Assembly: GCA_016208495.1 (NCBI GenBank)
Contig: JACQXX010000070.1
Coordinates: 62,001 to 126,000, forward strand
Reading direction: 5' to 3'
DNA: 64,000 nucleotides
From: Acidobacteriota bacterium
GTDB taxonomy: Bacteria; Acidobacteriota; Blastocatellia; Chloracidobacteriales; Chloracidobacteriaceae
In this document: piece by piece, positions 46,003-59,033 of the stretch
Numbering within the stretch: position 1 is the first letter of the stretch
Layout: each line of letters opens with the position of its first letter
Notes under the pieces: model-generated
Database searches by the model: none
What the model saw: only the letters and a program-made list of their open reading frames with translations
Told to the model about the DNA's origin: nothing
Made by a program: the position numbers and the translations under genes

Positions 46003-46550
46003 AAGTAGTCAGTACCACCTGCGTCAGCGGGTGGGTATTCAAAATATAAATTCAATTTCAATCAAATAGTTCAATAGCAAGCAATCCTCATTCCAAAGGT
46101 TTCGGCTTGCTATAACATTTCAGATACATATTTCCTGGGAGCGCTGGCATCCTGCCGGCACCAAGTAGTTGATTTTCGATCAGTTGCCGGCAGGATGCCA
46201 GCGTTCCCAGTCTGTTTTCTTTTTCTGCATTTGAGCACAGTCCCTGGTCGGACAAAGGAAGCTGCCGGTATCTCTGGAATGAGCGAAGTGTTGATCAGGC
46301 AATTGAATATGTCGTGCATGGGCAAGGAGAGAGTCTGTCAGACTGACCCACCCGCTCACGCAGGTGGTACTGACTTGACGTCATCCTCTCATTGACAACC
46401 CATCCGCTCACGCAGGTGGTACTGACAAAGCTCACTCGTTGATACAGGTAGTACTGACAAATCCAGCAGCGGTGTGCATAATGATTCATCCACGAAAAAT
46501 CTAGCTGGTTGCACCTTTTATCCGGTTCAGAAACAAGGAGACAGAGACGA
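46003..46550. repeat. Intergenic repeat cluster upstream of the kinase-FGE gene
   Basis: A 548-bp gap with no gene. It carries copies of the CCACC..GGTGG-TACTGAC palindrome at about 46008-46034 (complement strand), 46347-46374, 46399-46429 and a worn copy at 46437-46461. A 26-bp near-perfect inverted repeat has arms 46135-46160 and 46185-46210 (one mismatch; CTGGGAGCGCTGGCATCC...) with a 24-nt loop. AAGGAG at 46535-46540 serves the kinase gene. Confidence 0.85.
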
Positions 46551-48341
46551 ATGCTGCTCAACAATCGGTATGAGGTTCTTAAGGAATTAAGTCAGGGAGC
46601 GTTTGGCAAAACCTTTCTGGCGGAGGACCGCAACAGCCCATCACGGCGCAAATGCGTGGTGAAACAGCTCAGACCAGATGGGAAATGTGATTTTCAGTTG
46701 GCGCGGGAACGCTTTGAACGCGAAGCTGCCGTCCTGGAACACTTAGCCGAAGAAAGCCGCCAGATACCGAATTTGTATGCCTACGTGGTTGAAGGCGGGC
46801 AGTTTTACCTGGTTCAGGAGTTTGTAGACGGTCCAACATTGGCGCAACTGGTTGAACGGCAAGGTCGTCTCTCAGAACCGGTTGTCCGTGAGATCATCAT
46901 CAAGTTGCTGGACGTGGTTGAGTACATTCACAGCCAGAACATCATTCATCGGGACATCAAACCAGACAACATCATCCTGCGCACCAGAGACAATCTTCCA
47001 GTCCTGCTTGATTTTGGAACTGTCAAAGAAGTCACGCGGCTGGATTCGGTTGGGAATCCAACCGGCTCAATGATTGGAGGAACAAGCGGGTTTATGCCGC
47101 TGGAGCAAGCAGCGGGAAGACCAATGTTTGTCAGTGATATTTTTGCTCTTGGGGTAACTGCCATTGCGCTTTTGACCGGGAAAAACCCAGGCAAAATGAC
47201 TGATCCTCGAACTGGAAATTTAAATTGGGAAACTCATGCTGGAAATATCAGTCACGAACTGGTTGAAATCCTCAATCGAAGCACCAAACAACTCCCTCAG
47301 GATCGGTATTTGGGTGCTAAAGAAATGCAATGGGCGCTCAATAGCCTGATTGTGCCAGTTGTCCGACCTGTAACTGCTCATACCGTACCAGCCAAATCTT
47401 TGCCAGAACCGACTGCACCTGCGACTCCACTGGTATCGCTGACGACTAAGACACTTCCACCACCAGTTTTAACACCGATGGTGGCATCCAAACCAATGAA
47501 GGAGCCATCACCCTCAAAACCGGTTACAACTCATATTCTGCCAAAACCCATTGCTGCTGCACCTGTTAGTTCACCGTTATCACCGACAATTGCAATACCA
47601 CCTTTAACACCGAAGGTAGCGGTTGAGCCGATTAAGAAACCACCACGTCAAGAACTGGCAGCTCTACCTCAGTTGATTAAAAATAATTTAGGAATGGAAT
47701 TTGTGTTAATCCCAGCCGGAGAGTTTCAGATGGGAGCAAAACAATTTGCACCTGAAAAACCGGTACATAAAGTGAAAATCAGCCAGCCGTTTTACCTGGG
47801 AAAATATCAGGTGACACAAGCGCAGTGGCAAGCGGTGATGGGAAGCAACCCGTCATATTTCAAAGGAGAAAACCTGCCGGTTGAAACGGTGTCGTGGGAC
47901 GATTGCCAGGATTTCATAAAGAAGTTAAATGGGAAAGGAGAAGGAGCCTACCGGTTGCCAACAGAGGCGGAATGGGAATATGCGTGTCGAGCAGGCACAA
48001 CGGGGGACTTTGGAGGGACAGGAAAGATGAAAGAAATGGGTTGGTATTCTGAAAATGCGGGAGGAAAAACCCATCCAGTGGGGAAGAAGAAACCAAACGA
48101 GTTTGGGGTATACGACATGCACGGGAACGTGTGGGAATGGTGTGAGGATTGGTATGGATTGTACCCGAGTGGGAACGTAACGGATCCGAAAGGTCCTGAC
48201 AGAGGCTCGCGCCGGGTGAATCGGGGCGGCGGTTGGAGGGGCACCGCTGTTGGCTGCCGGTCAGCGGCTCGCGGCGTCATCCTGCCCGGCTACCGCGCCA
48301 GCTACCTGGGCTTCCGTCTCGTGAGGATAGCGGATCGGTAA
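46551..48341 (+). CDS. Ser/Thr protein kinase fused to a C-terminal FGE-sulfatase/C-type-lectin variable domain (copy 1)
   Basis: The 596-residue protein has an N-terminal Hanks kinase domain: glycine loop LSQGAFGKTF, Lys38 in CVVKQL, IIHRDIKPDN with His133-Asp135, and Asp154 of DFG. A Pro-rich linker (about residues 265-375) follows. The C-terminal FGE-sulfatase-type domain starts GMEFVLIPAGEFQMG and holds YQVTQAQWQAVMGSNPSYF, RLPTEAEWEYACRAGT and DMHGNVWEWCEDWYG. The last part (48213-48326) is VR-like: a fixed framework RGG-W, CRSA-R and LGFRLVR with clustered differences from the paralogue at 57369. There is no membrane helix. The ATG at 46551 has CAAGGAG upstream; the frame to 46509 lacks support. 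The RodA-PBP gene follows 194 bp downstream. Confidence 0.93.
   Translation: MLLNNRYEVLKELSQGAFGKTFLAEDRNSPSRRKCVVKQLRPDGKCDFQLARERFEREAAVLEHLAEESRQIPNLYAYVVEGGQFYLVQEFVDGPTLAQLVERQGRLSEPVVREIIIKLLDVVEYIHSQNIIHRDIKPDNIILRTRDNLPVLLDFGTVKEVTRLDSVGNPTGSMIGGTSGFMPLEQAAGRPMFVSDIFALGVTAIALLTGKNPGKMTDPRTGNLNWETHAGNISHELVEILNRSTKQLPQDRYLGAKEMQWALNSLIVPVVRPVTAHTVPAKSLPEPTAPATPLVSLTTKTLPPPVLTPMVASKPMKEPSPSKPVTTHILPKPIAAAPVSSPLSPTIAIPPLTPKVAVEPIKKPPRQELAALPQLIKNNLGMEFVLIPAGEFQMGAKQFAPEKPVHKVKISQPFYLGKYQVTQAQWQAVMGSNPSYFKGENLPVETVSWDDCQDFIKKLNGKGEGAYRLPTEAEWEYACRAGTTGDFGGTGKMKEMGWYSENAGGKTHPVGKKKPNEFGVYDMHGNVWEWCEDWYGLYPSGNVTDPKGPDRGSRRVNRGGGWRGTAVGCRSAARGVILPGYRASYLGFRLVRIADR
48213..48326 (+). other. 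Putative DGR variable region (VR), copy 1
   Basis: The 38 codons have the frame RV-x-RGG-x-W ... CRSA-x-R ... PG-x-R ... LGFRLVR. Against copy 2 (58908-59021) the length is identical. Fifteen codons encode different residues: codons 3, 7, 9, 10, 13, 14, 19, 21-24, 27 and 29-31. Most of these keep C or T in the third position, as expected where the template codon is AAC/AAT. Eight further synonymous third-base changes also occur, so the two copies do not come from one identical template without later drift. Confidence 0.7.
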
Positions 48342-48535: not shown

Positions 48536-51500
48536 ATGGCCATTACTCGCAGCACCGCCGCAGACCGCACCCAAAGACAACTGAACCAGCATCCAGCCCC
48601 AGTTTTCATTCCCGTCAATCTTGTTCTTTCATTGATTGTTTCTCTCCTCTTTGGCTATGGAGCCTGGAAGGTCAAAGCTGTTCAGGAAGTGGAATACAAT
48701 TTCACTGATGTTTCGGCTACCCTCAAAGAACAGGAAAAGATCAAACCACAACGGCAGACTCCGGTGAACCTCAATGCGGTGACATCTTCCAAGGAAATCC
48801 TTCCGATTCTTGATTTTCTGGAAAGTGATAAAGACCGTGAATTTGCCGCCGGAATCATTTATGAATACACCCGGAACAACCGGCTGGCCAATGTCGGTCA
48901 GCTCGCAAAAGTTCGCTATCGGGAAAACGACCTGCCTCCAGACGCTCCGGAGTTTCGTCGCCGCTTTGATGAGGCGAAAAAGGCTGCCGATGAAGCCAAA
49001 CTCAAACGTGACGAAGCCGCAAAACAGCCGAAGCCGGTCAAATGGTACATTCGTCTTTTGGAAATCCTGGGTATTGTTTCGCCACGGGCTGAAGAAGTTG
49101 CGCCTCCAGAGCCAGAAGTTTCAGTTCGACTCTTATCTGACATTTCCCGGATCAAGGATGACGTCGTGGTCCGCGCTCCATGGCAATTTATCTCCGGCTA
49201 CTGGCAAATGATTGGTCTGTATCTGGTTAGTATGTATGTGACACAACTCTTTTGGTGGTGGAAAAAAGGCAACTCCGATGTCTGGTTGTTCCCGATTTTG
49301 CACACGCTGACCGGACTTGGGTTGCTGATGAGCGTCAGCTTGAAAGACCCACTCCGGGATCGAATGGAATTTGAAGGCTTTGCCCTGGGGATTGTGGCTG
49401 GGTGTATCGGAATCATAGCGGTTTCCTTCATTGACCTGGACAAATTTCGCCGATCAAAAACTGCTTCCTGGGGTTGGCTGGCTGTTGCCATAGGGTTGTC
49501 GGCAGCGCTGCTTTTGTTTGGACAAGGCCCGGAAGGAAGCCCGGATGTCAAAGTGAACCTGCTGGGATTCCAACCCGTCGAAGCCATCAAAATTGCCCTG
49601 GTGTTCTTTCTGGCCGGAATCTTCGGACGCAATTGGGAAAAACTCCGCGAATTGCAACACCGCACGTCCTTACTGCCCAGGGCATTGCGAGCGGTCAATA
49701 TTCCTCGAATCCAAGATTCACTCCCCGTGATGGCCGGAGTTGGGGTCGCCATGGTCTTTTTCTTCTTTCAAAAGGATTTAGGACCGGCACTGATTGTGTC
49801 ATGCACCTTTTTGACCCTGTATGCTGTCGCCCGTGGACGATCTGTTCTTTCGATATTCGGACTCGCGGTGATTGTGCTTGGATTTTGGGGAGGGTACAAA
49901 CTTGGCTCGCCTCCGACCGTGGTGGATCGGGTCAATATGATGCTCTCGCCGTTTGACAACTATGTGCGTGGCGGCGAACAGGTCGCCCATGCGCTCTGGG
50001 CTTTTTCCACGGGAGGATTGACCGGAAGTGGGGTGGGCTACGGTGACGCACGGGTGATCCCAGCCGGGTACACCGACTTGATTATTTCAGTGGTTGGTGA
50101 GCAGCTAGGATTTGCAGGTATTCTCATTGTTTATGGACTGTATGCGGTTTTGCTCTGGCGAGGTATCCGCATTGCCCTGACGGCGGCGGAAAAGTATGAC
50201 TTCTTTTTGGCGCTTGGGCTGACATTGCTCACTGCCTATCAAATCATTCTGATCTCAGGTGGTATTCTGGGTTTGATACCGCTTTCCGGGGTCGTGTCTC
50301 CGTTTTTGAGCCACGGGAAATCCTCGATGCTGGCCAATTGTGTCATCGTCGGATTGTTGTTGTTGATTTCGTCACGAACTGGAAAACCAGAAGACACCGA
50401 ACCTTTCCACCGACAAGCTGGTGTTGTGACATTGGTTCTGGGCATGGCATTGCTGGTTATTGTTGGGAAAGCCGCTTCTGTCCAGGTCATCAATGCGGAT
50501 GAAATCATGATCGCGGGAGCACTGGTTGTTCGGAGCGAACCCTACTCGGCGGATGAATTGGCTGACTACAAAGCTGAAGTTTACAAACACGAACTGGCCG
50601 CCGCCCGCAAAAAAGCCGGGTTGCCAGATACTTCCGCCACTGATGAAGACGATGCTGGTGACAAGAAAAATGAAGATTTTGAAGCCAAATTCAAAGATGA
50701 CTTTCTGCGAAAGTATGGATTTGGTTCGCGTGGTCGTCCCTATGCCAAACGCGACTATGTGTACAATCCACGCCTGACCAGCATTGCCCAGTTGGTGCCA
50801 CGGGGCGCGATTTATGACCGGAATGGGATTCCATTAGCAACCAGCAACTGGGAGGAAATCGAACGGAACCGAAAGAAATATCAAGAGTTAGGTGTTGCCG
50901 TAGACCATGTTTGCCAGCGAAGCGACCTGCGACATTATCCATTTGGTGATCTGCTGTTTCATTTGCTTGGAAACTGGCGAACCCGGACCAACTGGGCGGC
51001 TGCCAACACAGACTATATTGAAAAGGATTACAACGACCGGTTGCAGGGCTACAGCAGTTACCCCGAACGAATCCGTCGGTATGATTCGCGGATTGAAGCT
51101 CATGTTCCGATCACGCGCCAGGATTTTCACGACCTGATTGGTGTTTTACACCATCGCCACCAGCCTGACCATCCCGCGATGAAGGAGTTTTTAAACCGCA
51201 AGCGGGATGTGCGGATGTCAATTGATATTGGGTTGCAGCAAAAAGTCGCGGTAATTCTTCGGGAAGCCATTGCCAAAGACCAGAAGCTCAAGCGTGGTTC
51301 AGTGGTTGTGATGTCGCCGGAAACTGGTGAATTGCTGGCTTCGGTCGGGTATCCGTGGCCTGGTGAACTTAAGCCGATACAGACGCCAAAAAACGCCAGT
51401 GAGAAACGCCGTGAAGAGATTCGAGCGGAAAATCTGAAAAATCTGGGGGCGATGTTGATTGACCGGGCGCGATTTGGGACGTTCCCGCCGGGCTCGACCT

Positions 51501-52261
51501 TCAAGCTGGTGACGGCCATGGCCGCCATGCCCAATGATGAAAAGGCTGTTTTTCAATGTGTTCCTCTTGGAGATGGCCGGGTTGGGTTCAAAATTCCGGG
51601 CTGGGGAGATCCGACCCGTGATGATATCGGAGACAAGTCAGCCCACGGGTCGGTCAACCTGGAACGTGGAATGGTTGTGTCGTGCAATGCCTACTTTGCT
51701 CAACTCGGAGTTCGCATCGGAGCGCCACGGTTGTTTGACACGATGAGCAAATTCAACATCAGCGCCGGGAACCCAAATACGGCAGAGGAATTAGGCAAAA
51801 CCCTGCCACAATCAGCTTATGGGCAGGGAGAAATCACCGCTTCACCATTTCAAATGGCAAAAGTCGCATCCACCGTCGCCAACCATGGCAAGATGCCGTT
51901 TGGGAAATGGGTCATTGATGAAAGCAACCAGCGAACCGATGAGCCACGGGAAATTGTCCCGATGGCTTCGGCGCAACTGCTGGCACGGGCACTCCGCGGT
52001 GTTGTCACCGAAGGAACCGGAAAAGTTTTGGCAAACTCCTCAATCCTGATTGCTGGCAAGACGGGAACGGCGGAAGCTGGGCGCGGCAGAAAATCACATT
52101 CCTGGTTTGTCGGGTTTGCGCCTTTCGGCGAACCGCCAGCCCGTCAGATTGCTTTTAGCGTGTTGATCGAAAATAGCGGCTATGGCAGCAAATATGCCGC
52201 GCCAGTTGCCAAACAAGTCGTCGAAGTGGCTCGTGAGCGTCAGTACATTTCACAAGAATGA
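48536..52261 (+). CDS. SEDS (RodA/FtsW) glycosyltransferase fused to class B penicillin-binding protein
   Basis: One 1241-residue protein holds both enzymes of a cell-wall synthase pair. After an N-terminal membrane helix and an extracytoplasmic-looking charged region, the SEDS part spans about residues 225-620. It has many membrane segments and the conserved Asp (D514) in PAGYTDLIISVVGEQLGF; this Asp is required for glycan polymerisation in the family. A further membrane helix leads into the PBP2-type part, with RGAIYDRNGIPLATS. The transpeptidase motifs are intact: SxxK at Ser987 (PPGSTFKL), SxN at Ser1049 (VVSCNAYF) and KTG at Lys1175 (AGKTGTAEAG). RodA and PbpA are separate proteins in nearly all bacteria. 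The next kinase gene lies 39 bp downstream. Confidence 0.93.
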   Translation: MAITRSTAADRTQRQLNQHPAPVFIPVNLVLSLIVSLLFGYGAWKVKAVQEVEYNFTDVSATLKEQEKIKPQRQTPVNLNAVTSSKEILPILDFLESDKDREFAAGIIYEYTRNNRLANVGQLAKVRYRENDLPPDAPEFRRRFDEAKKAADEAKLKRDEAAKQPKPVKWYIRLLEILGIVSPRAEEVAPPEPEVSVRLLSDISRIKDDVVVRAPWQFISGYWQMIGLYLVSMYVTQLFWWWKKGNSDVWLFPILHTLTGLGLLMSVSLKDPLRDRMEFEGFALGIVAGCIGIIAVSFIDLDKFRRSKTASWGWLAVAIGLSAALLLFGQGPEGSPDVKVNLLGFQPVEAIKIALVFFLAGIFGRNWEKLRELQHRTSLLPRALRAVNIPRIQDSLPVMAGVGVAMVFFFFQKDLGPALIVSCTFLTLYAVARGRSVLSIFGLAVIVLGFWGGYKLGSPPTVVDRVNMMLSPFDNYVRGGEQVAHALWAFSTGGLTGSGVGYGDARVIPAGYTDLIISVVGEQLGFAGILIVYGLYAVLLWRGIRIALTAAEKYDFFLALGLTLLTAYQIILISGGILGLIPLSGVVSPFLSHGKSSMLANCVIVGLLLLISSRTGKPEDTEPFHRQAGVVTLVLGMALLVIVGKAASVQVINADEIMIAGALVVRSEPYSADELADYKAEVYKHELAAARKKAGLPDTSATDEDDAGDKKNEDFEAKFKDDFLRKYGFGSRGRPYAKRDYVYNPRLTSIAQLVPRGAIYDRNGIPLATSNWEEIERNRKKYQELGVAVDHVCQRSDLRHYPFGDLLFHLLGNWRTRTNWAAANTDYIEKDYNDRLQGYSSYPERIRRYDSRIEAHVPITRQDFHDLIGVLHHRHQPDHPAMKEFLNRKRDVRMSIDIGLQQKVAVILREAIAKDQKLKRGSVVVMSPETGELLASVGYPWPGELKPIQTPKNASEKRREEIRAENLKNLGAMLIDRARFGTFPPGSTFKLVTAMAAMPNDEKAVFQCVPLGDGRVGFKIPGWGDPTRDDIGDKSAHGSVNLERGMVVSCNAYFAQLGVRIGAPRLFDTMSKFNISAGNPNTAEELGKTLPQSAYGQGEITASPFQMAKVASTVANHGKMPFGKWVIDESNQRTDEPREIVPMASAQLLARALRGVVTEGTGKVLANSSILIAGKTGTAEAGRGRKSHSWFVGFAPFGEPPARQIAFSVLIENSGYGSKYAAPVAKQVVEVARERQYISQE

Positions 52262-52300: not shown

Positions 52301-53545
52301 ATGGTTACTATGCTCCTAAAAAATCGGTACAAAGTAATCAGTCGGCTTGGGGTCGGTGGGTTTGGGGAAACCTTTTTAGCTGAAGACACCGATTTACCTT
52401 CGCGGCGCCGGTGTGTGATCAAGCGATTGAAGCCTGTGGAGGGCATGCTTTTAGAAGAGGCGCAGCGGCTTTTTGCTCAGGAAGCACAAATCTTGGAAGA
52501 ATTGGGAAAAGGATCCCAGGGCCGGGTGCCGGAACTTTATGCGTATTTTAATGAAGGGGAGGATTTTTACCTGGCGATGGAATATGTTAACGGCATCGCT
52601 CTGGACAGAAAGGTAAGCCAAACTGGGCCTTTGGATGAATCGGAAGTCTGGGGGCGGATTTTGCGGGCATTATTGATGACATTGGAATATGTCCACGCCC
52701 GAAAAGTAATTCATCGAGATATTAAGCCAGCCAACATCATTATTCGGAATGACGGCACTCCGGTGTTGATTGACTATGGAATTGTGAAACGACAGTTGAC
52801 AACGCTGGCCGGCGGTCAGCAGGCATACGCCCAATCAAGAAGCACGACGGGAACCGAAGGCTACACACCAGATGAACAATGGAAAGGAAAAGCGATCTAT
52901 GCCAGCGATTTGTATGCGCTTGGGATGACCGCTATTTTCGCACTCACCGGTAAATCCCCAACCGAACTGCACGATCTTGAGACAGGAGAATTTGTGTGGC
53001 GTCGATACGCTCCACGGGTAAGCGCCCAACTGGCAGGTGTCTTAGATAAAGTGGTGAGGGAAAACTATCGAGAACGATATGCCACAGCTTCCGAAATGCG
53101 CTTAGCTTTGGACCAGGCTCGCCCGGAAGATGAGCGAACTGTCCAACGTCCCATAGTCGCCAATTCAGCGCTGTCACCACGTGTGAAAGATGCTCAAGCC
53201 ACCAATGAGGTAAAGACATTCCGAATTGCCAAACCTCCAGCACCGTTGTCAGGTTCACTTGAGTCACCCAAAAGCCAGCCCATCCAGCTCTTTGCCGCTT
53301 TTGATGAGGACATATCCAACGAATCAGGTGGAAGTTCGGTCCTGCGTCCAGTTTTTTTGATTGTATCCCTTTTGTTTGCTCTGTTAGGGAGCTGGCAATT
53401 TTTCGGGTTTCAACATACCAAAGAAGAAAATACACATTTTTGGGTTGCGATTGGATTGTTTTTGATTTCGTTTGGCTGTGCCTGGCTTTTTTTCTTTCTG
53501 AGTATCAGAAAGAAAGATTCAGAGAAACCAAACACTCTGGTTTAG
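52301..53545 (+). CDS. Membrane-anchored Ser/Thr protein kinase, PknA/PknB-like
   Basis: A 414-residue kinase. The glycine loop is LGVGGFGETFLAED, the lysine is in CVIKRL, and the catalytic loop is VIHRDIKPANIII. The metal-binding motif reads DYG in VLIDYGIVKRQ (D158) in place of DFG; this substitution is tolerated in some active kinases. After a linker from about residue 275, two hydrophobic segments end the protein (VFLIVSLLFALLGSWQFF and FWVAIGLFLISFGCAWLFFFL), so the kinase faces the cytoplasm with only a short outer loop. The start may be the ATG at 52301 or the one at 52310 (MLLKNRYKV), which aligns better with its paralogues. Confidence 0.93.
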   Translation: MVTMLLKNRYKVISRLGVGGFGETFLAEDTDLPSRRRCVIKRLKPVEGMLLEEAQRLFAQEAQILEELGKGSQGRVPELYAYFNEGEDFYLAMEYVNGIALDRKVSQTGPLDESEVWGRILRALLMTLEYVHARKVIHRDIKPANIIIRNDGTPVLIDYGIVKRQLTTLAGGQQAYAQSRSTTGTEGYTPDEQWKGKAIYASDLYALGMTAIFALTGKSPTELHDLETGEFVWRRYAPRVSAQLAGVLDKVVRENYRERYATASEMRLALDQARPEDERTVQRPIVANSALSPRVKDAQATNEVKTFRIAKPPAPLSGSLESPKSQPIQLFAAFDEDISNESGGSSVLRPVFLIVSLLFALLGSWQFFGFQHTKEENTHFWVAIGLFLISFGCAWLFFFLSIRKKDSEKPNTLV

Positions 53546-53679: not shown

Positions 53680-54450
53680 ATGGGTATTTTTGATAAACTA
53701 TTTGGAGGCAGACACCGCCAGCCACTCGAAATCCTGGACGATATTTTATACGAAGTTGAGTCCTACATTCAGCCCATTGGCAATGGACACAAGATATTTC
53801 CCCATCCTGTGATTCAGGTTCAACTGGCGGCAGCGGATGATGCCCACTGGGCCGTTCTGCAAGCTGCCTTTATCCAGGAAAAGCGTCTGGAGACTTCGAT
53901 CAAGCAACGCTTGCAAAAATCAGGGTGTGACACCACCCAACTCCAGGTATTGGTCGCTCGGGCGGCACCAGATACGGCTGAGATTGGTCGGAACGGGTAT
54001 GTGATTGAGTTATCGGCAACCCCACAGGTGATAGCAAAAACCGGAAGACTTGGCCCCCAGGTTCCCCCCGCCAGACTTGAGGTAATGGATGGTACGGCTG
54101 GTGTCTCGGCTTCAGATATTACCAAATCTCCATTTTTCATTGGACGCACTCCCGAAGTCAAAGATACCGCTGGGCGGATTATTCGGAGAAACGATCTGGC
54201 GTTTGAAGATGATGGGACGCATATAAACAAAACAGTCAGTCGTGAGCATGCCCGGATTGTCTATGTATCAAGCGAAGATCACTTTCGGCTCTGTGATGAG
54301 GGAAGTAGTAAGAGAACCAGCATTTTCCGGAACAATCAAACCATCCAGGTGATTGCCAATGACCCACGGGGTGTGGCACTCCACAATGGGGACGAAATCT
54401 ACTTTGGACGGGCACGAGTCAAATTCAGTATCCTTGAAGAAACCGCATAG
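53680..54450 (+). CDS. FHA domain protein, FhaA-like
   Basis: A 256-residue cytoplasmic protein. The N-terminal 120 residues (MGIFDKLFGGRHRQPLEIL and on) look like the DUF3662 type of N-terminal domain found on FhaA. The C-terminal FHA domain starts SPFFIGRTPEVKD and has SREHARIVY. FHA domains bind phosphothreonine peptides, so it is a probable substrate reader for the kinases beside it. The loop usually NGT reads GSSKRTSIF here, so the phosphopeptide contact may be altered. GTGAGG before the ATG serves as the ribosome binding site. Confidence 0.85.
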   Translation: MGIFDKLFGGRHRQPLEILDDILYEVESYIQPIGNGHKIFPHPVIQVQLAAADDAHWAVLQAAFIQEKRLETSIKQRLQKSGCDTTQLQVLVARAAPDTAEIGRNGYVIELSATPQVIAKTGRLGPQVPPARLEVMDGTAGVSASDITKSPFFIGRTPEVKDTAGRIIRRNDLAFEDDGTHINKTVSREHARIVYVSSEDHFRLCDEGSSKRTSIFRNNQTIQVIANDPRGVALHNGDEIYFGRARVKFSILEETA

Positions 54451-54547: not shown

Positions 54548-55483
54548 ATGCCCGAGCGAGCAACTGGACGTGATATCGTTTTTGAGATTCTGAAAAATAT
54601 GCGTGAGAGTGCCGAACCCCTCACCCGCGATGTTCTGGTCCCAGGGATTTATAACGTTTACCTTCATATTGAAGACCATACCCGGCTGGCCGCGATTCAA
54701 GGAGATATCGCCACCGATGCCAAACAGGCGTTGGAAAATGAAATCGACCGGTCAAACCAGTTGCAAACGCCAAAGCCGCTTGACCGATTGAAGGGGATGT
54801 TTCGAGGCGGGACTGACAAATTAGGGGAAACGCTCCCGTATCGCAAACCGGTCAGTGGCTGGCAAATCATTTTTCACATCGCCACCGAGGCCGAGTTTCT
54901 CCCAGGTGAAATCGAAATCCACTCACAGTTTGCCCACAATGTAAAAACCAATCGTGGTGGCCAGGAGACCGTCATGACTGAAATGCGCCAGGGAACAGGG
55001 ACTACCCGGACTGCTATGTCTCCGAAAAGCCGCCAACCGGTTGGTCCTGCGCTGGCTGAAGAACAAACTCATGTCCGAGATGGTGGCAGCGTCCCGTTTG
55101 CGCAATCTGGTGTCCGCCCATTTGCAGTTCTTCGATATGAGAGCAAAACTGGGCCGAAGGTGCTTTCAATTCGCAAAGACGATATTGTAATTGGTCGCGG
55201 CGGTCCGAATTGCTGGGTTGATTTCCGGATTATTGCCCCGTTTGAAGCGGATACCAAAATGGTATCGAGCGAGCATATCCGGCTGAGGCGTGACCCAACG
55301 ACAGGCAAGTTCTTTATCAAAGACACCAGTTCAAATGGAACGACCGTCAATGGACAACGAATCCCACCAAGTTTAGATAATGGAACCCCCCGACGGGATC
55401 GCAATGTCGAAGTTCCGCTTCCTGAGAGTTGCCGAATTGGGCTGGCGGATGTCGTTTTTCTGGAGTTTGAGGTGTGTCAATGA
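54548..55483 (+). CDS. FHA domain protein with N-terminal DUF3662-like region
   Basis: A 311-residue protein. The N-terminal region (about residues 1-140) is alpha/beta and resembles the N-terminal domain of the preceding gene's product. A disordered linker follows. The FHA domain starts about residue 205: KVLSIRKDDIVIGRGG, then SSEHIRLRRD and DTSSNGTTVNGQRI, the full canonical phosphothreonine-binding set. It overlaps the phosphatase ATG by 4 bp (ATGA), so translation is coupled. It probably recruits kinase substrates, as FhaA/FhaB do in mycobacteria. Confidence 0.88.
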   Translation: MPERATGRDIVFEILKNMRESAEPLTRDVLVPGIYNVYLHIEDHTRLAAIQGDIATDAKQALENEIDRSNQLQTPKPLDRLKGMFRGGTDKLGETLPYRKPVSGWQIIFHIATEAEFLPGEIEIHSQFAHNVKTNRGGQETVMTEMRQGTGTTRTAMSPKSRQPVGPALAEEQTHVRDGGSVPFAQSGVRPFAVLRYESKTGPKVLSIRKDDIVIGRGGPNCWVDFRIIAPFEADTKMVSSEHIRLRRDPTTGKFFIKDTSSNGTTVNGQRIPPSLDNGTPRRDRNVEVPLPESCRIGLADVVFLEFEVCQ

Positions 55484-57060
55484 CCCTAAGTCCCCCTGCG
55501 CTCAATTCAGGTATCCGTCCGGTTGCCTCCGCTGGGGCGACGGACCCCGGCTTGATTCGTGCCAACAACGAAGATCGATTTGGATCCACCCCTGATGCCG
55601 GGTACTTTTTTGTGGTTGATGGGGTTGGCGGCCAGGCTGCCGGAGAGATTGCCGCCCAGATTGCCGCTGATTCCCTTTCGGCTCGATTACACCGCCGGGT
55701 CGGTACGCCTGAACGACGAGTCCGCGAAGCGATCACGATTGCCAACAACAACATCTTTGCCCGTGCCAGTGAAAACCCGGAATGGTCAGGGATGGCCTGT
55801 GTGTTGACGGTTGCGGTACTGGAGCAAGAGCGGTTGACGATTGGGCAAGTCGGAGACACGCGGTTGTACCTGATCACGGCTGATGAGCAAACTCAAACCA
55901 CCACTATTCACAAAGTAACGCACGATCATTCGCCGGTGGGTGAACTTGAAGACGCCGGAGACCTCACTGAGCAGGATGCCATGCTCCATCCGGATCGGAA
56001 CCAGGTCAACCGGCAGGTCGGCATTGAGGACCATACTCCAGATGACGAGGCATTCATTGAAATCACGGAAATTGTGTTTCCTCCGTCAAGTGCGCTGGTT
56101 TTGTGTAGTGATGGGTTGAGTGATGTGGTGACCTCCGATCAAATTCGAAGTTGTGTCCAGGAATCGGCTGGAAACCCGCACGAAACAGCACTGGCTCTCA
56201 TTACCGCCGCCAATGCCGAAGGCGGCAAGGACAACATCACCGTCGTGGTGGTCGAAGGCGAAAGCTTTTCCAAAGCGGTGCGATCTCAGGTGATACCTCT
56301 AACTGAAGTGTTGCCGCTCTCACCACCGGTTCCGAAACGGCCTCGCCGGTTTTCCATTCCAGGCTGGTTGCTGTTTGTCTTTGGTGTTGTGGTTGGAATT
56401 GCACTTTCAACTGTTTTTTGGAAACGATTTCCAGTGGAGTTGCCGCCAAAGCCGATTTCCAAACCAGTTCCCGTGTCAAAGATTCTTCTGGTTGGTCCAG
56501 ATCGTCAATTTGCCACAATTTCAGAAGCACTCCTGGTTGCCCGCGCTGGCGATACGATTTCCGTTGCTCCAGGCGAATATCGTGAGCAAGTTAAACTCAA
56601 GAATGGAGTTACAGTCATTTCGGAAGAATTTGGAAAAGCAGTGATTCTCCCTACGACAACTCCCGGTGCGGCGGTGATTGCCGAACAGGTTTCCAATGCA
56701 CGCTTTGCGGGATTCAAAATCCTGGGCGAAGAAACAACCCCGCTGGCAGTCGGATTGTTTATCAACGGTGGGTCACTTGAGGTTGAAGATCTTGAAATTT
56801 CACAAACCAGGCAATCTGCGATTGAAATGACCGGCAATGTTTCTTCCGTATTGCGGGCGAATTATCTGCATGACAATGCCGGAAACGGGATTGTGGTGCG
56901 GGGTCCGGCGGCTGTACCACGCCTGATCGGCAACATTATTGTGACAGTTGGACGTGACACGCCAGCACGAAAGACCGGAATTGTGATTCTGGACGGTGCT
57001 GCTCCTCGTGACGAACGAAACCTCGTGACACCTGTACTCATTATGAAGGATGAGTTATGA
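55480..57060 (+). CDS. PP2C-type protein phosphatase with membrane helix and outer beta-helix-like domain
   Basis: This 526-residue protein starts at the ATG (55480) that overlaps the FHA stop, with GAGG 8 bp upstream. The PP2C domain (about residues 10-260) keeps all metal-binding motifs: GLIRANNEDRFG, FFVVDGVGGQAAGE, VLCSDGLSDVV and GGKDNITVV. One membrane helix follows (PGWLLFVFGVVVGIALSTVFW). The last 190 residues, from VGPDRQFATISEALLVARAGDTISV, look like a right-handed parallel beta-helix (pectin-lyase-like) and would lie outside the membrane. It should reverse the action of the kinases in the cluster. PstP of actinobacteria has a simple outer tail instead. Confidence 0.93.
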   Translation: MTLSPPALNSGIRPVASAGATDPGLIRANNEDRFGSTPDAGYFFVVDGVGGQAAGEIAAQIAADSLSARLHRRVGTPERRVREAITIANNNIFARASENPEWSGMACVLTVAVLEQERLTIGQVGDTRLYLITADEQTQTTTIHKVTHDHSPVGELEDAGDLTEQDAMLHPDRNQVNRQVGIEDHTPDDEAFIEITEIVFPPSSALVLCSDGLSDVVTSDQIRSCVQESAGNPHETALALITAANAEGGKDNITVVVVEGESFSKAVRSQVIPLTEVLPLSPPVPKRPRRFSIPGWLLFVFGVVVGIALSTVFWKRFPVELPPKPISKPVPVSKILLVGPDRQFATISEALLVARAGDTISVAPGEYREQVKLKNGVTVISEEFGKAVILPTTTPGAAVIAEQVSNARFAGFKILGEETTPLAVGLFINGGSLEVEDLEISQTRQSAIEMTGNVSSVLRANYLHDNAGNGIVVRGPAAVPRLIGNIIVTVGRDTPARKTGIVILDGAAPRDERNLVTPVLIMKDEL

Positions 57061-57368: not shown

Positions 57369-59033
57369 ATGTTGCCAAAATTGCTGAGCAATCGGTATCT
57401 GTTGATTGAGAAATTGGGTTCAGGTGCTTTTGGGGAAACTTTTTTGGCGGAAGATACCCAGAGTCCATCACAGCGAAGGTGCGTTGTGAAGCGGTTGAAT
57501 CCAACGGGAGCGTGCGATTTTCAACTGGCCAAAGAACGGTTTGACCGGGAAGCTGTGGTACTGGAATCTCTTGGCGAAAAAAACCGACAGATTCCACGGT
57601 TGTATGCCCATATTGTGGAAAACAACGAGTTTTATCTGGTTCAAGAACTGATCGAAGGACCTACGCTAACGCAAAAGCTCGCGAGTCAAGGCCCCTTGTC
57701 CGAAGCGGCGGTGCGTGGAATTTTGGTGGGACTCCTGCCGGTATTGGAGTTTATCCACAGCCAGGACATCATCCATCGAGACATCAAGCCGGACAACATC
57801 ATTCTGCGAACGAAAGATACTCTTCCAGTATTGATAGACTTCGGCGTTGTCAAGGAAGTCACTCAGTTGGATGCATTTGGGAATCCAACCAGTTCAGTTC
57901 TGGCGGGAACCCCGGTGTTTATGCCGCTGGAGCAGGCGGCAGGACATCCGATGTATAGCAGCGATTTGTATGCCTTGGGAATGACCGCCATTCAGTTGCT
58001 AACTGGAAAAAGATTGAGCGAGATGCAAGATCGTCGGAAAGGAACCCTGAATTGGAGACCTCATGCCACAGGTATCAGCCTGGAATTGAGTGAAGTCTTA
58101 AATCGGGCGACGGAGAGGTATCCTCAAGACCGTTATGAAACCGCATCGGAAATGCTCACGGCACTGGATCAACCGCGGTTTCAATTAGATCAACGTCGAG
58201 TTGAACCGGTGGTGATTCCACCGCCACCGGTTATCGTGACTCCCAATCCAGAAAACCCGATTTTGGGTGGGATGAGAAAGTTATTCGAGGGATTTAGTCG
58301 AAAATCAGGACCGCCACCGCCGCCACCAAAACGAGTTGAACCGCAACCACGGGTTCAGCTTCCCAGTGAATTCAAGAACAGTCTGGGGATAGAATTTGTG
58401 TTGATTCCAGCCGGAGAATTCCAAATGGGATCAACCCAGTTTGGTGATGAAAAGCCAGTGCATAAAGTGAAGATCTGCCAGCCGTTTTACCTGGGAAAAT
58501 ATCAGGTGACACAAGCGCAGTGGCAAGCGGTGATGGGAAGCAATCCGTCATATTTTAAGGGAGAAGACCTGCCAGTGGAAAATGTGTCATGGGACAAGGT
58601 GCAAAGGTTTATCAAGGCGCTGAATGGGAGAGGGGATGGACCCTACCAGTTGCCGACAGAGGCGCAATGGGAATACGCGTGTCGAGCGGGGACGACAGGA
58701 GATTATGCGGGAAATTTGGATGAAATGTGTTGGTATGAGGGTAATTCAGAAAGTAAAACTCACCCAGTAGGTCAAAAGAAACCAAATGGATGGGGGCTGT
58801 ACGACATGCACGGGAACGTGTGGGAATGGTGTCAAGACTGGTATGACAACGGATACTCCGCGAAGAGCGCTGGGAGCGATCCGAAAGGTCCCAGTGATGG
58901 CTCGGCCCGGGTGTATCGGGGCGGCAGTTGGTTCTACACCGCCATCTACTGTCGGTCGGCGAATCGTGCCCGCAACACGCCGGGCACCCGCAACAACGAC
59001 CTGGGTTTCCGCCTTGTGAGGACGGCTCGGTAA
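57369..59033 (+). CDS. Ser/Thr protein kinase fused to a C-terminal FGE-sulfatase/C-type-lectin variable domain (copy 2)
   Basis: A 554-residue paralogue of the protein at 46551. The kinase part has GSGAFGETF, Lys41, IIHRDIKPDN (His136-Asp138) and DFG (Asp157). Here the Pro-rich linker is shorter, about residues 285-335. The FGE part matches copy 1 closely, with YQVTQAQWQAVMGSNPSYF identical and QLPTEAQWEYACRAGT similar; it ends in a VR-like segment RV-x-RGG-x-W, CRSA-x-R, LGFRLVR. No membrane helix is present. It is preceded by GGAGACGATGAC. An FGE-type lectin fold attached to a kinase points to a variable ligand-binding input to phosphorylation signalling. Confidence 0.93.
   Translation: MLPKLLSNRYLLIEKLGSGAFGETFLAEDTQSPSQRRCVVKRLNPTGACDFQLAKERFDREAVVLESLGEKNRQIPRLYAHIVENNEFYLVQELIEGPTLTQKLASQGPLSEAAVRGILVGLLPVLEFIHSQDIIHRDIKPDNIILRTKDTLPVLIDFGVVKEVTQLDAFGNPTSSVLAGTPVFMPLEQAAGHPMYSSDLYALGMTAIQLLTGKRLSEMQDRRKGTLNWRPHATGISLELSEVLNRATERYPQDRYETASEMLTALDQPRFQLDQRRVEPVVIPPPPVIVTPNPENPILGGMRKLFEGFSRKSGPPPPPPKRVEPQPRVQLPSEFKNSLGIEFVLIPAGEFQMGSTQFGDEKPVHKVKICQPFYLGKYQVTQAQWQAVMGSNPSYFKGEDLPVENVSWDKVQRFIKALNGRGDGPYQLPTEAQWEYACRAGTTGDYAGNLDEMCWYEGNSESKTHPVGQKKPNGWGLYDMHGNVWEWCQDWYDNGYSAKSAGSDPKGPSDGSARVYRGGSWFYTAIYCRSANRARNTPGTRNNDLGFRLVRTAR
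58908..59021 (+). other. Putative DGR variable region (VR), copy 2
   Basis: It has 38 codons of the same layout as copy 1. Most of the positions that differ from copy 1 are of the form NNC or NNT here (TAT, AGT, TTC, TAC, ATC, TAC, AAT, GCC, CGC, AAC, ACC, AAC, AAC, GAC), and AAC itself is retained at several. A framework such as RGGSW and CRSANR with AAC-like variable codons is known from DGR targets in cyanobacteria and other bacteria. No template repeat was found in the window. Confidence 0.72.

Follow-up and report, generated by a model that had tools for sequence, protein, structure and literature searches.

The gene at positions 55480–57060 of the window (the whole stretch of Acidobacteriota DNA analysed here, 64 000 nucleotides) encodes a protein confirmed to consist of an intact PP2C phosphatase domain, one membrane helix and a right-handed beta-helix. 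The analyses below establish this architecture, the fold by profile and by model, the signature residues, and the conservation of both the fusion and its neighbours, among which are genes for cell-wall synthesis. We consider it probable that the protein is a PstP-like wall-operon phosphatase whose beta-helix binds an envelope glycan or periplasmic partner, so placing or tuning the enzyme at a fused FtsW/PBP protein. PstP-like phosphatases of wall operons are known; the beta-helix ectodomain is, in our judgement, the new part.

Gene and domain architecture

The fusion and its parts are as follows (methods in parentheses):
55480–57060, + strand: PP2C phosphatase–membrane helix–right-handed beta-helix fusion, 526 aa (open reading frame, Pfam, AlphaFold2, profile)
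55522–56265, + strand: PP2C (PPM) catalytic domain, residues 15–262 (Pfam, signature residues, structure comparison)
56362–56427, + strand: single membrane helix, residues 295–316 (AlphaFold2, hydrophobicity, alignment)
56482–57057, + strand: right-handed beta-helix of the DUF1565/Beta_helix type, residues 335–526 (Pfam, profiles, AlphaFold2)

The 526-residue reading frame starts with the ATG at 55480 and its stop codon ends at 57060; an in-frame GTG lies ahead of this ATG, at 55474. The start codon shares the bases ATGA with the TGA of the upstream FHA gene, a 4-base overlap that suggests translational coupling. Pfam identified PP2C at residues 33–157 (E 7.8e-15, 55.7 bits against a cut-off of 20.3), PP2C_2 at residues 28–229 (E 1.6e-12) and DUF1565 at residues 344–511 (E 2.7e-8, 33.9 bits, above the cut-off of 20.3), while Beta_helix at 423–475 (E 7.9e-5) scored 22.8 bits, below its cut-off of 25.9. 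With the NCBIfam model for the Stp1/IreP equivalog (NF033484), the protein reached 185.4 bits and so falls outside that class, for which the cut-off is 230. Compared with its orthologues, the window protein has a six-residue insert in the PP2C domain and a C-terminus that is some 15–40 residues shorter, in the last part of the beta-helix; inspection of the other two frames by eye revealed no continuation of the beta-helix.

The PP2C domain

All 13 aligned family members share residues R27, D32, D47, G48, D126, D149, D211, D251 and N252, which we take to be the PP2C signature. Both the fold and the catalytic-centre signature of a bacterial PP2C (PPM) phosphatase are present, and the domain is predicted to be active. 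Among solved structures, those of tPphA and Mycobacterium tuberculosis PstP lie nearest: VIA-align gave a Z-score of 32.5 (rmsd 1.8, 229 residues) with 2y09 of tPphA and 31.7 (rmsd 2.1, 235 aligned residues) with 1txo_B of PstP. By catalytic-domain sequence, the cyanobacterial tPphA is the closest protein of solved structure (2j82, E 2e-30), closer than PstP, and this counts against a PstP-like reading. The solved chains of the tPphA/Stp1 type, at 234–268 residues, comprise PP2C alone, whereas here a membrane helix and a beta-helix are added.

The beta-helix ectodomain

An AlphaFold2 model, built from an input alignment of eight sequences (the window protein and seven orthologues), had a mean pLDDT of 81.7 and showed a PP2C domain, one helix at residues 295–316 (ten-residue block means 60–79), then many short strands forming a beta-helix from approximately residue 335. 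Block means were 83–96 for residues 331–470 and only 62–78 for 471–526. A single-sequence model, with a mean pLDDT of 38.3, was not used. As a profile test, 14 beta-helix domains from other proteins (alignment A1 minus the window row) were compared with the window protein, which scored 65.3 bits. Of 1000 shuffled versions of the ectodomain, 838 were among the matches listed, and none scored higher than 8.5 bits. All 13 aligned family members scored at least 23.2 bits with this profile. The lowest scores came from three members of one genus (23–26 bits, E 3e-7 to 2e-6), whose match to the fold is weak and to that extent counts against our preferred reading. At E ≤ 0.01, the Pfam models Beta_helix and DUF1565 each matched nine of the 13 members and each missed four.

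Profile A1 (15 rows, window included) matched the pectinesterase 1gq8 over positions 2–190 with an E value of 1.1e-13, and profile A3, made from four PP2C fusions, matched NosD 7o0y (E 2.9e-6). Since the profile scores lie far above those of the shuffles and these solved proteins are matched, a pectin-lyase-type right-handed beta-helix is a well-supported prediction for the ectodomain. Foldseek and VIA-align searches against the PDB speak for the PP2C part only, as every match listed was a PP2C protein; in a viral structure library, right-handed beta-helix and pectate-lyase proteins appeared from rank 19 (E 1.2e-5), in results that give no aligned range. An earlier note, made from the sequence alone, had described a complete PP2C domain, one membrane helix and about 190 residues with the look of a pectin-lyase fold, and each part of that description is borne out by these analyses. 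The ectodomain resembles DUF1565, NosD and pectinesterase proteins by profile and differs from them in serving here as the outer domain of a phosphatase.

From the membrane helix onwards, the residues invariant in 13 members are D358, Y367, N514 and seven glycines, of which two lie in the helix; all look structural. The only invariant acidic residue of the ectodomain is D358, which belongs to a GD pair early in the domain, and no catalytic or ligand-binding residue set was evident among the invariant ectodomain residues of the 13 members. Mean pairwise identity was 0.34 for the ectodomain against 0.56 for PP2C, with the ectodomain lower in 78 of 78 pairs; it evolves faster than the phosphatase domain, which we count against the preferred reading.

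Membrane helix and topology

A hydrophobic helix candidate lies between PP2C and beta-helix in all 15 genomes found to carry the fusion, the weakest being that of G338 at 1.48 on the Kyte–Doolittle scale. The pair G302-xxx-G306 within the helix is invariant in 13/13 aligned members, and such a GxxxG pair suggests helix–helix packing. In 12 of 13 members, lysine and arginine are more numerous over the 20 residues preceding the helix than over the 20 that follow. Together with the logic of the domains, these charges make it likely that PP2C lies in the cytoplasm and the beta-helix in the periplasm; the window protein itself has a tie, four and four on either side, which counts against this topology. 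After the helix, cysteine is absent from the window protein and from 10 of the 13 members, and the other three have one each.

Distribution of the fusion

The fusion first appeared confined to the window: no full-length relative was among the matches listed for the 57 nearest other genomes. Phylum-wide searches found orthologues, and the idea of a singleton was rejected. Ten members with the beta-helix were used to build a profile of PP2C alone (A4), which was run on 396 Acidobacteriota genomes with up to seven candidates scored per genome. Nine genomes matched at E ≤ 1e-113 (the window's own, G000, with G275, G331, G338, G379, G393, G451, G471 and G487), and the next match was at 4e-61. The profile contains PP2C only, so a helix-less member should have appeared above this score gap; none did, and in all nine the beta-helix is in the same frame as PP2C. 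By its sequence, the PP2C profile delimits a clean subfamily. The survey of PP2C homologues proposed in the earlier note therefore finds the fusion conserved, in 9/9 genomes above the gap.

A beta-helix scan gave 30 loci, seven of them with a PP2C fusion. Four of these represent further genomes (G511–G514, for loci L142, L143, L144 and L148), in which the beta-helix is present by construction because the loci were found through it. The loci L145, L146 and L147 were taken as contigs of G331, G393 and G379, with which they share open reading frames, and were not counted twice. Among 47 genomes of the phylum to which G511, a Ca. Eisenbacteria MAG, belongs, three matched the PP2C profile at E ≤ 1e-70. 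Besides G511 itself these are G516 (1.7e-72) and G526 (4.6e-96), both of which also carry the beta-helix. In total, 15 genomes in two phyla have the fusion, all with the beta-helix. Within the family of G331, 3/15 genomes have a member. Several members are MAGs, and the host assigned to a single contig may therefore be wrong; G275 and G451 are each listed as one contig.

The beta-helix has a wider distribution. Searched on its own, the C-terminal domain had matches in 41 of 162 genomes of the class, the window's own included, and among 30 loci fetched in this search it lay on kinase, TIR and other proteins, with PP2C only in the window. DUF1565 was found in 101/396 Acidobacteriota genomes and profile A3 in 137/396; the beta-helix domain is thus common and its fusion to PP2C is not. 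The possibility that DUF1565 proteins of the phylum are commonly PP2C fusions was rejected, as only L099 and the window's own L089 were such fusions among the 30 loci fetched; L099 led to the rest of the family. Two further candidates chosen by open reading frame length (G414 and G379:C593) had no PP2C in frame. Plasmid and phage records gave PP2C matches, none covering 80% of the query. Among the papers listed by searches of the open-licence PMC literature, some of which required several terms together, none reported a PP2C phosphatase with a beta-helix ectodomain or a pstP-type locus in Acidobacteria.

The wall-synthesis locus

The neighbours of the fusion gene are:
48536–52261, + strand: FtsW/RodA polymerase fused to a penicillin-binding transpeptidase, 1241 aa (domain search)
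52301–53545, + strand: Ser/Thr kinase (HRD motif present, two membrane helices at the C-terminus) without an ectodomain
53680–54450, + strand: second FHA-domain protein
54548–55483, + strand: FHA-domain protein
57369–59033, + strand: Ser/Thr kinase fused to an FGE-sulfatase-like domain, 308 bases downstream of the PP2C gene

The order in the window is therefore FtsW/PBP, kinase, FHA, FHA, PP2C, kinase–FGE, with the last gene a possible member of the operon unit. Two kinases with FGE-sulfatase-like domains, at 46509–48341 and 57369–59033, flank the wall operon.

The sister loci have the same parts in a different order. A homologue of the FHA gene at 54548–55483 lies next upstream of PP2C in all 13 sister loci with upstream sequence, and a Ser/Thr kinase, FtsW/PBP and the second FHA gene lie downstream in 12/12 testable loci, the second FHA following the FtsW/PBP gene in all 12. 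With the window counted, the FHA gene is next upstream in 14/14 testable loci, and FtsW/PBP and the second FHA are each present in 13/13. These counts leave out G331 upstream, where the contig starts too near the PP2C gene, and G393 and G526 downstream, where the contigs end too early. Matches to both the FtsW and the PBP half were obtained in G331 and G379. In the other sister loci the match is to the PBP half, preceded in a single open frame by at least nine hydrophobic segments, except in G516, where the identification was made by eye. Promoter scanning gave nine sites against 4.7 in shuffles (sd 2.4) and terminator scanning 13 against 6.5 (sd 2.3), neither of which singled out the PP2C gene.

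Used as a query, the FtsW/PBP protein matched one of the 20 nearest genomes at E ≤ 1e-30, namely the window's own, and the wall locus is therefore an outlier among its relatives. The PP2C-domain tree is too weak to choose between transfer and loss as its origin: three of 20 inner branches are starred, the window protein (P0001) sits in an open fork, and of three outgroup rows with 14, 15 and 24% of columns filled, one landed inside the family. Gene transfer is not claimed from this tree, in which the window protein is unplaced and resolution is poor.

The mycobacterial pstP locus comprises rodA, pbpA, pknA/pknB, fhaA and fhaB (PMC6554272), and here too the phosphatase is linked to RodA/FtsW, PBP, FHA and Ser/Thr kinase genes. 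PstP is a membrane-bound protein with a cytoplasmic PP2C and a periplasmic domain, according to PMC12421883, a layout that the window protein would share given its predicted topology. The PstP periplasmic domain has two disulfides, whose loss destabilises the protein and slows growth; the domain is itself reported there to be non-essential, its function an open question. By contrast, the window ectodomain is a cysteine-free beta-helix. The locus differs further in that FtsW/RodA and PBP are one fused protein, in that the phosphatase subfamily comes from other phyla, and in its kinases: no PASTA domain was found at E ≤ 0.01 in any of the six kinases scanned (three in the window, two from sister operons and that of G516). 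It would appear that the wall-signalling locus also occurs, in a form without PASTA domains, outside Actinobacteria and Firmicutes.

Kinases and the shared outer module

The earlier note had proposed that the phosphatase, rather than the kinases, could be the wall sensor of this cluster. Within the window this choice of enzyme fits. The membrane kinase at 52301–53545 has only a short loop between its two C-terminal helices, and the kinase–FGE proteins have no hydrophobic helix outside the kinase domain, the one hydrophobic stretch of 46509–48341 (residues 206–224) lying inside it. No window kinase has an ectodomain, which leaves the phosphatase as the sole signalling enzyme there to carry one. 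It does not hold as a general rule, because the sister-operon kinases of L104, L143, L148 and G516 have a membrane helix followed by approximately 260 residues that look helical by eye (no Pfam family was found in this region in the three scanned), and because the beta-helix itself sits on kinases in relatives.

Kinases with a beta-helix after a hydrophobic helix occur in the window's own genome (contig C62), in G001 and in genomes of the same family (g4), where seven genomes have the beta-helix and the kinase was identified by Pfam in G004 and G008 and by eye in G007 and G003. Such Hanks-type kinases supply nine of the 14 rows of the profile with which the window protein scored 65.3 bits. They place the ectodomain likewise after a hydrophobic helix, with a kinase or kinase-like domain replacing the phosphatase, and differ in context: no FtsW/PBP or FHA homologue was found near the three checked (G000 contig C62, G001 and G004; 18–20 kb each). 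Its presence on membrane kinases in related genomes marks the beta-helix as a shuffled outer module, and its apparent movement between opposing enzymes argues, on these sequence comparisons, for a portable input or anchoring domain.

Proposed function

In the reading we prefer, the PP2C domain would dephosphorylate the operon kinase or kinases, the FHA partners and wall-synthesis proteins, as its family and gene set suggest. The membrane helix, with its GxxxG pair, would hold the beta-helix domain, some 190 residues long, on the periplasmic side. There, at the wall-synthesis complex, the beta-helix most likely binds a glycan of the envelope or some periplasmic partner; binding would then place or tune the phosphatase where the FtsW/PBP fusion works. 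A fusion kept beside wall-building genes may thus help to match cell-wall growth to internal signalling. The subfamily offers, in a pstP-like gene set, a phosphatase whose outer domain has a recognisable fold and many glycan-acting relatives; with the same module present on kinases, the idea of a phosphatase as envelope receptor becomes directly testable.

A possible but less probable alternative is that the beta-helix merely keeps the phosphatase in the wall-synthesis complex, binding the periplasmic part of FtsW/PBP, or itself in a dimer, without a small ligand. The co-occurrence of FtsW/PBP in every testable locus, the conserved GxxxG, an ectodomain conservation that appears structural, and the reported dispensability of the mycobacterial PstP periplasmic domain (PMC12421883) are all compatible with such a scaffold. 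It accounts poorly, however, for the beta-helix kinases of G000 contig C62, G001 and G004, which have no FtsW/PBP within the 18–20 kb examined around each.

We regard as rather unlikely the stronger proposal, first raised in the earlier note, of a true wall sensor, in which the beta-helix would bind fragments of peptidoglycan or glycan and thereby turn PP2C on or off, giving the phosphatase the input role that PASTA kinases have in Gram-positives. The status of the phosphatase as the sole signalling enzyme with an outer domain in the window operon would fit, as would the many polysaccharide-acting enzymes among the solved beta-helix proteins matched and the invariant GxxxG. Against it, the invariant ectodomain residues include no evident catalytic or binding set, and the sister kinases read also have outer regions. 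An extended version is slightly less likely still, and we offer it as speculation: in Acidobacteriota and Ca. Eisenbacteria, a wall-growth checkpoint would be read by the phosphatase, with the beta-helix on nascent or broken glycan switching FtsW–PBP dephosphorylation and the ectodomain traded with kinases. If true, this would reverse PASTA-kinase logic, and, the ectodomain being traded between kinases and phosphatases, either enzyme could be the receptor. That the ectodomain has an enzymatic activity of its own, on polysaccharide of the wall or cell surface and coupled to the phosphatase, is very improbable despite the match of A1 to pectinesterase 1gq8, as the aspartates presumed to be catalytic there are not kept in the aligned profile consensus, which sets the domain apart from pectinesterases, and D358 is the sole invariant acidic residue.

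Other occurrences of the beta-helix

Right-handed beta-helices joined to membrane-helix domains are also described for the Toastrack of the envelope-stress (PSP/Lia) systems (PMC11237479), a likeness of layout in a different family; the term PP2C is absent from the main text of that paper. Several g4 genomes encode kinase-like proteins with a membrane helix and a beta-helix (L039 481–2244, also L041, L043 and L049). In the four sequences of this kind that were read, HG[RA] and RGYG stand in place of HRD and DFG, and these proteins are possible pseudokinases on that basis. In G493 (L240 8881–12521), a beta-helix kinase lies beside a PP2C protein that has a membrane helix and an LEA_2 ectodomain. 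A TIR domain is fused to the beta-helix at L053 973–2634; no hydrophobic helix was found in the same protein at L184, which suggests that the beta-helix module may also be used in the cytoplasm.
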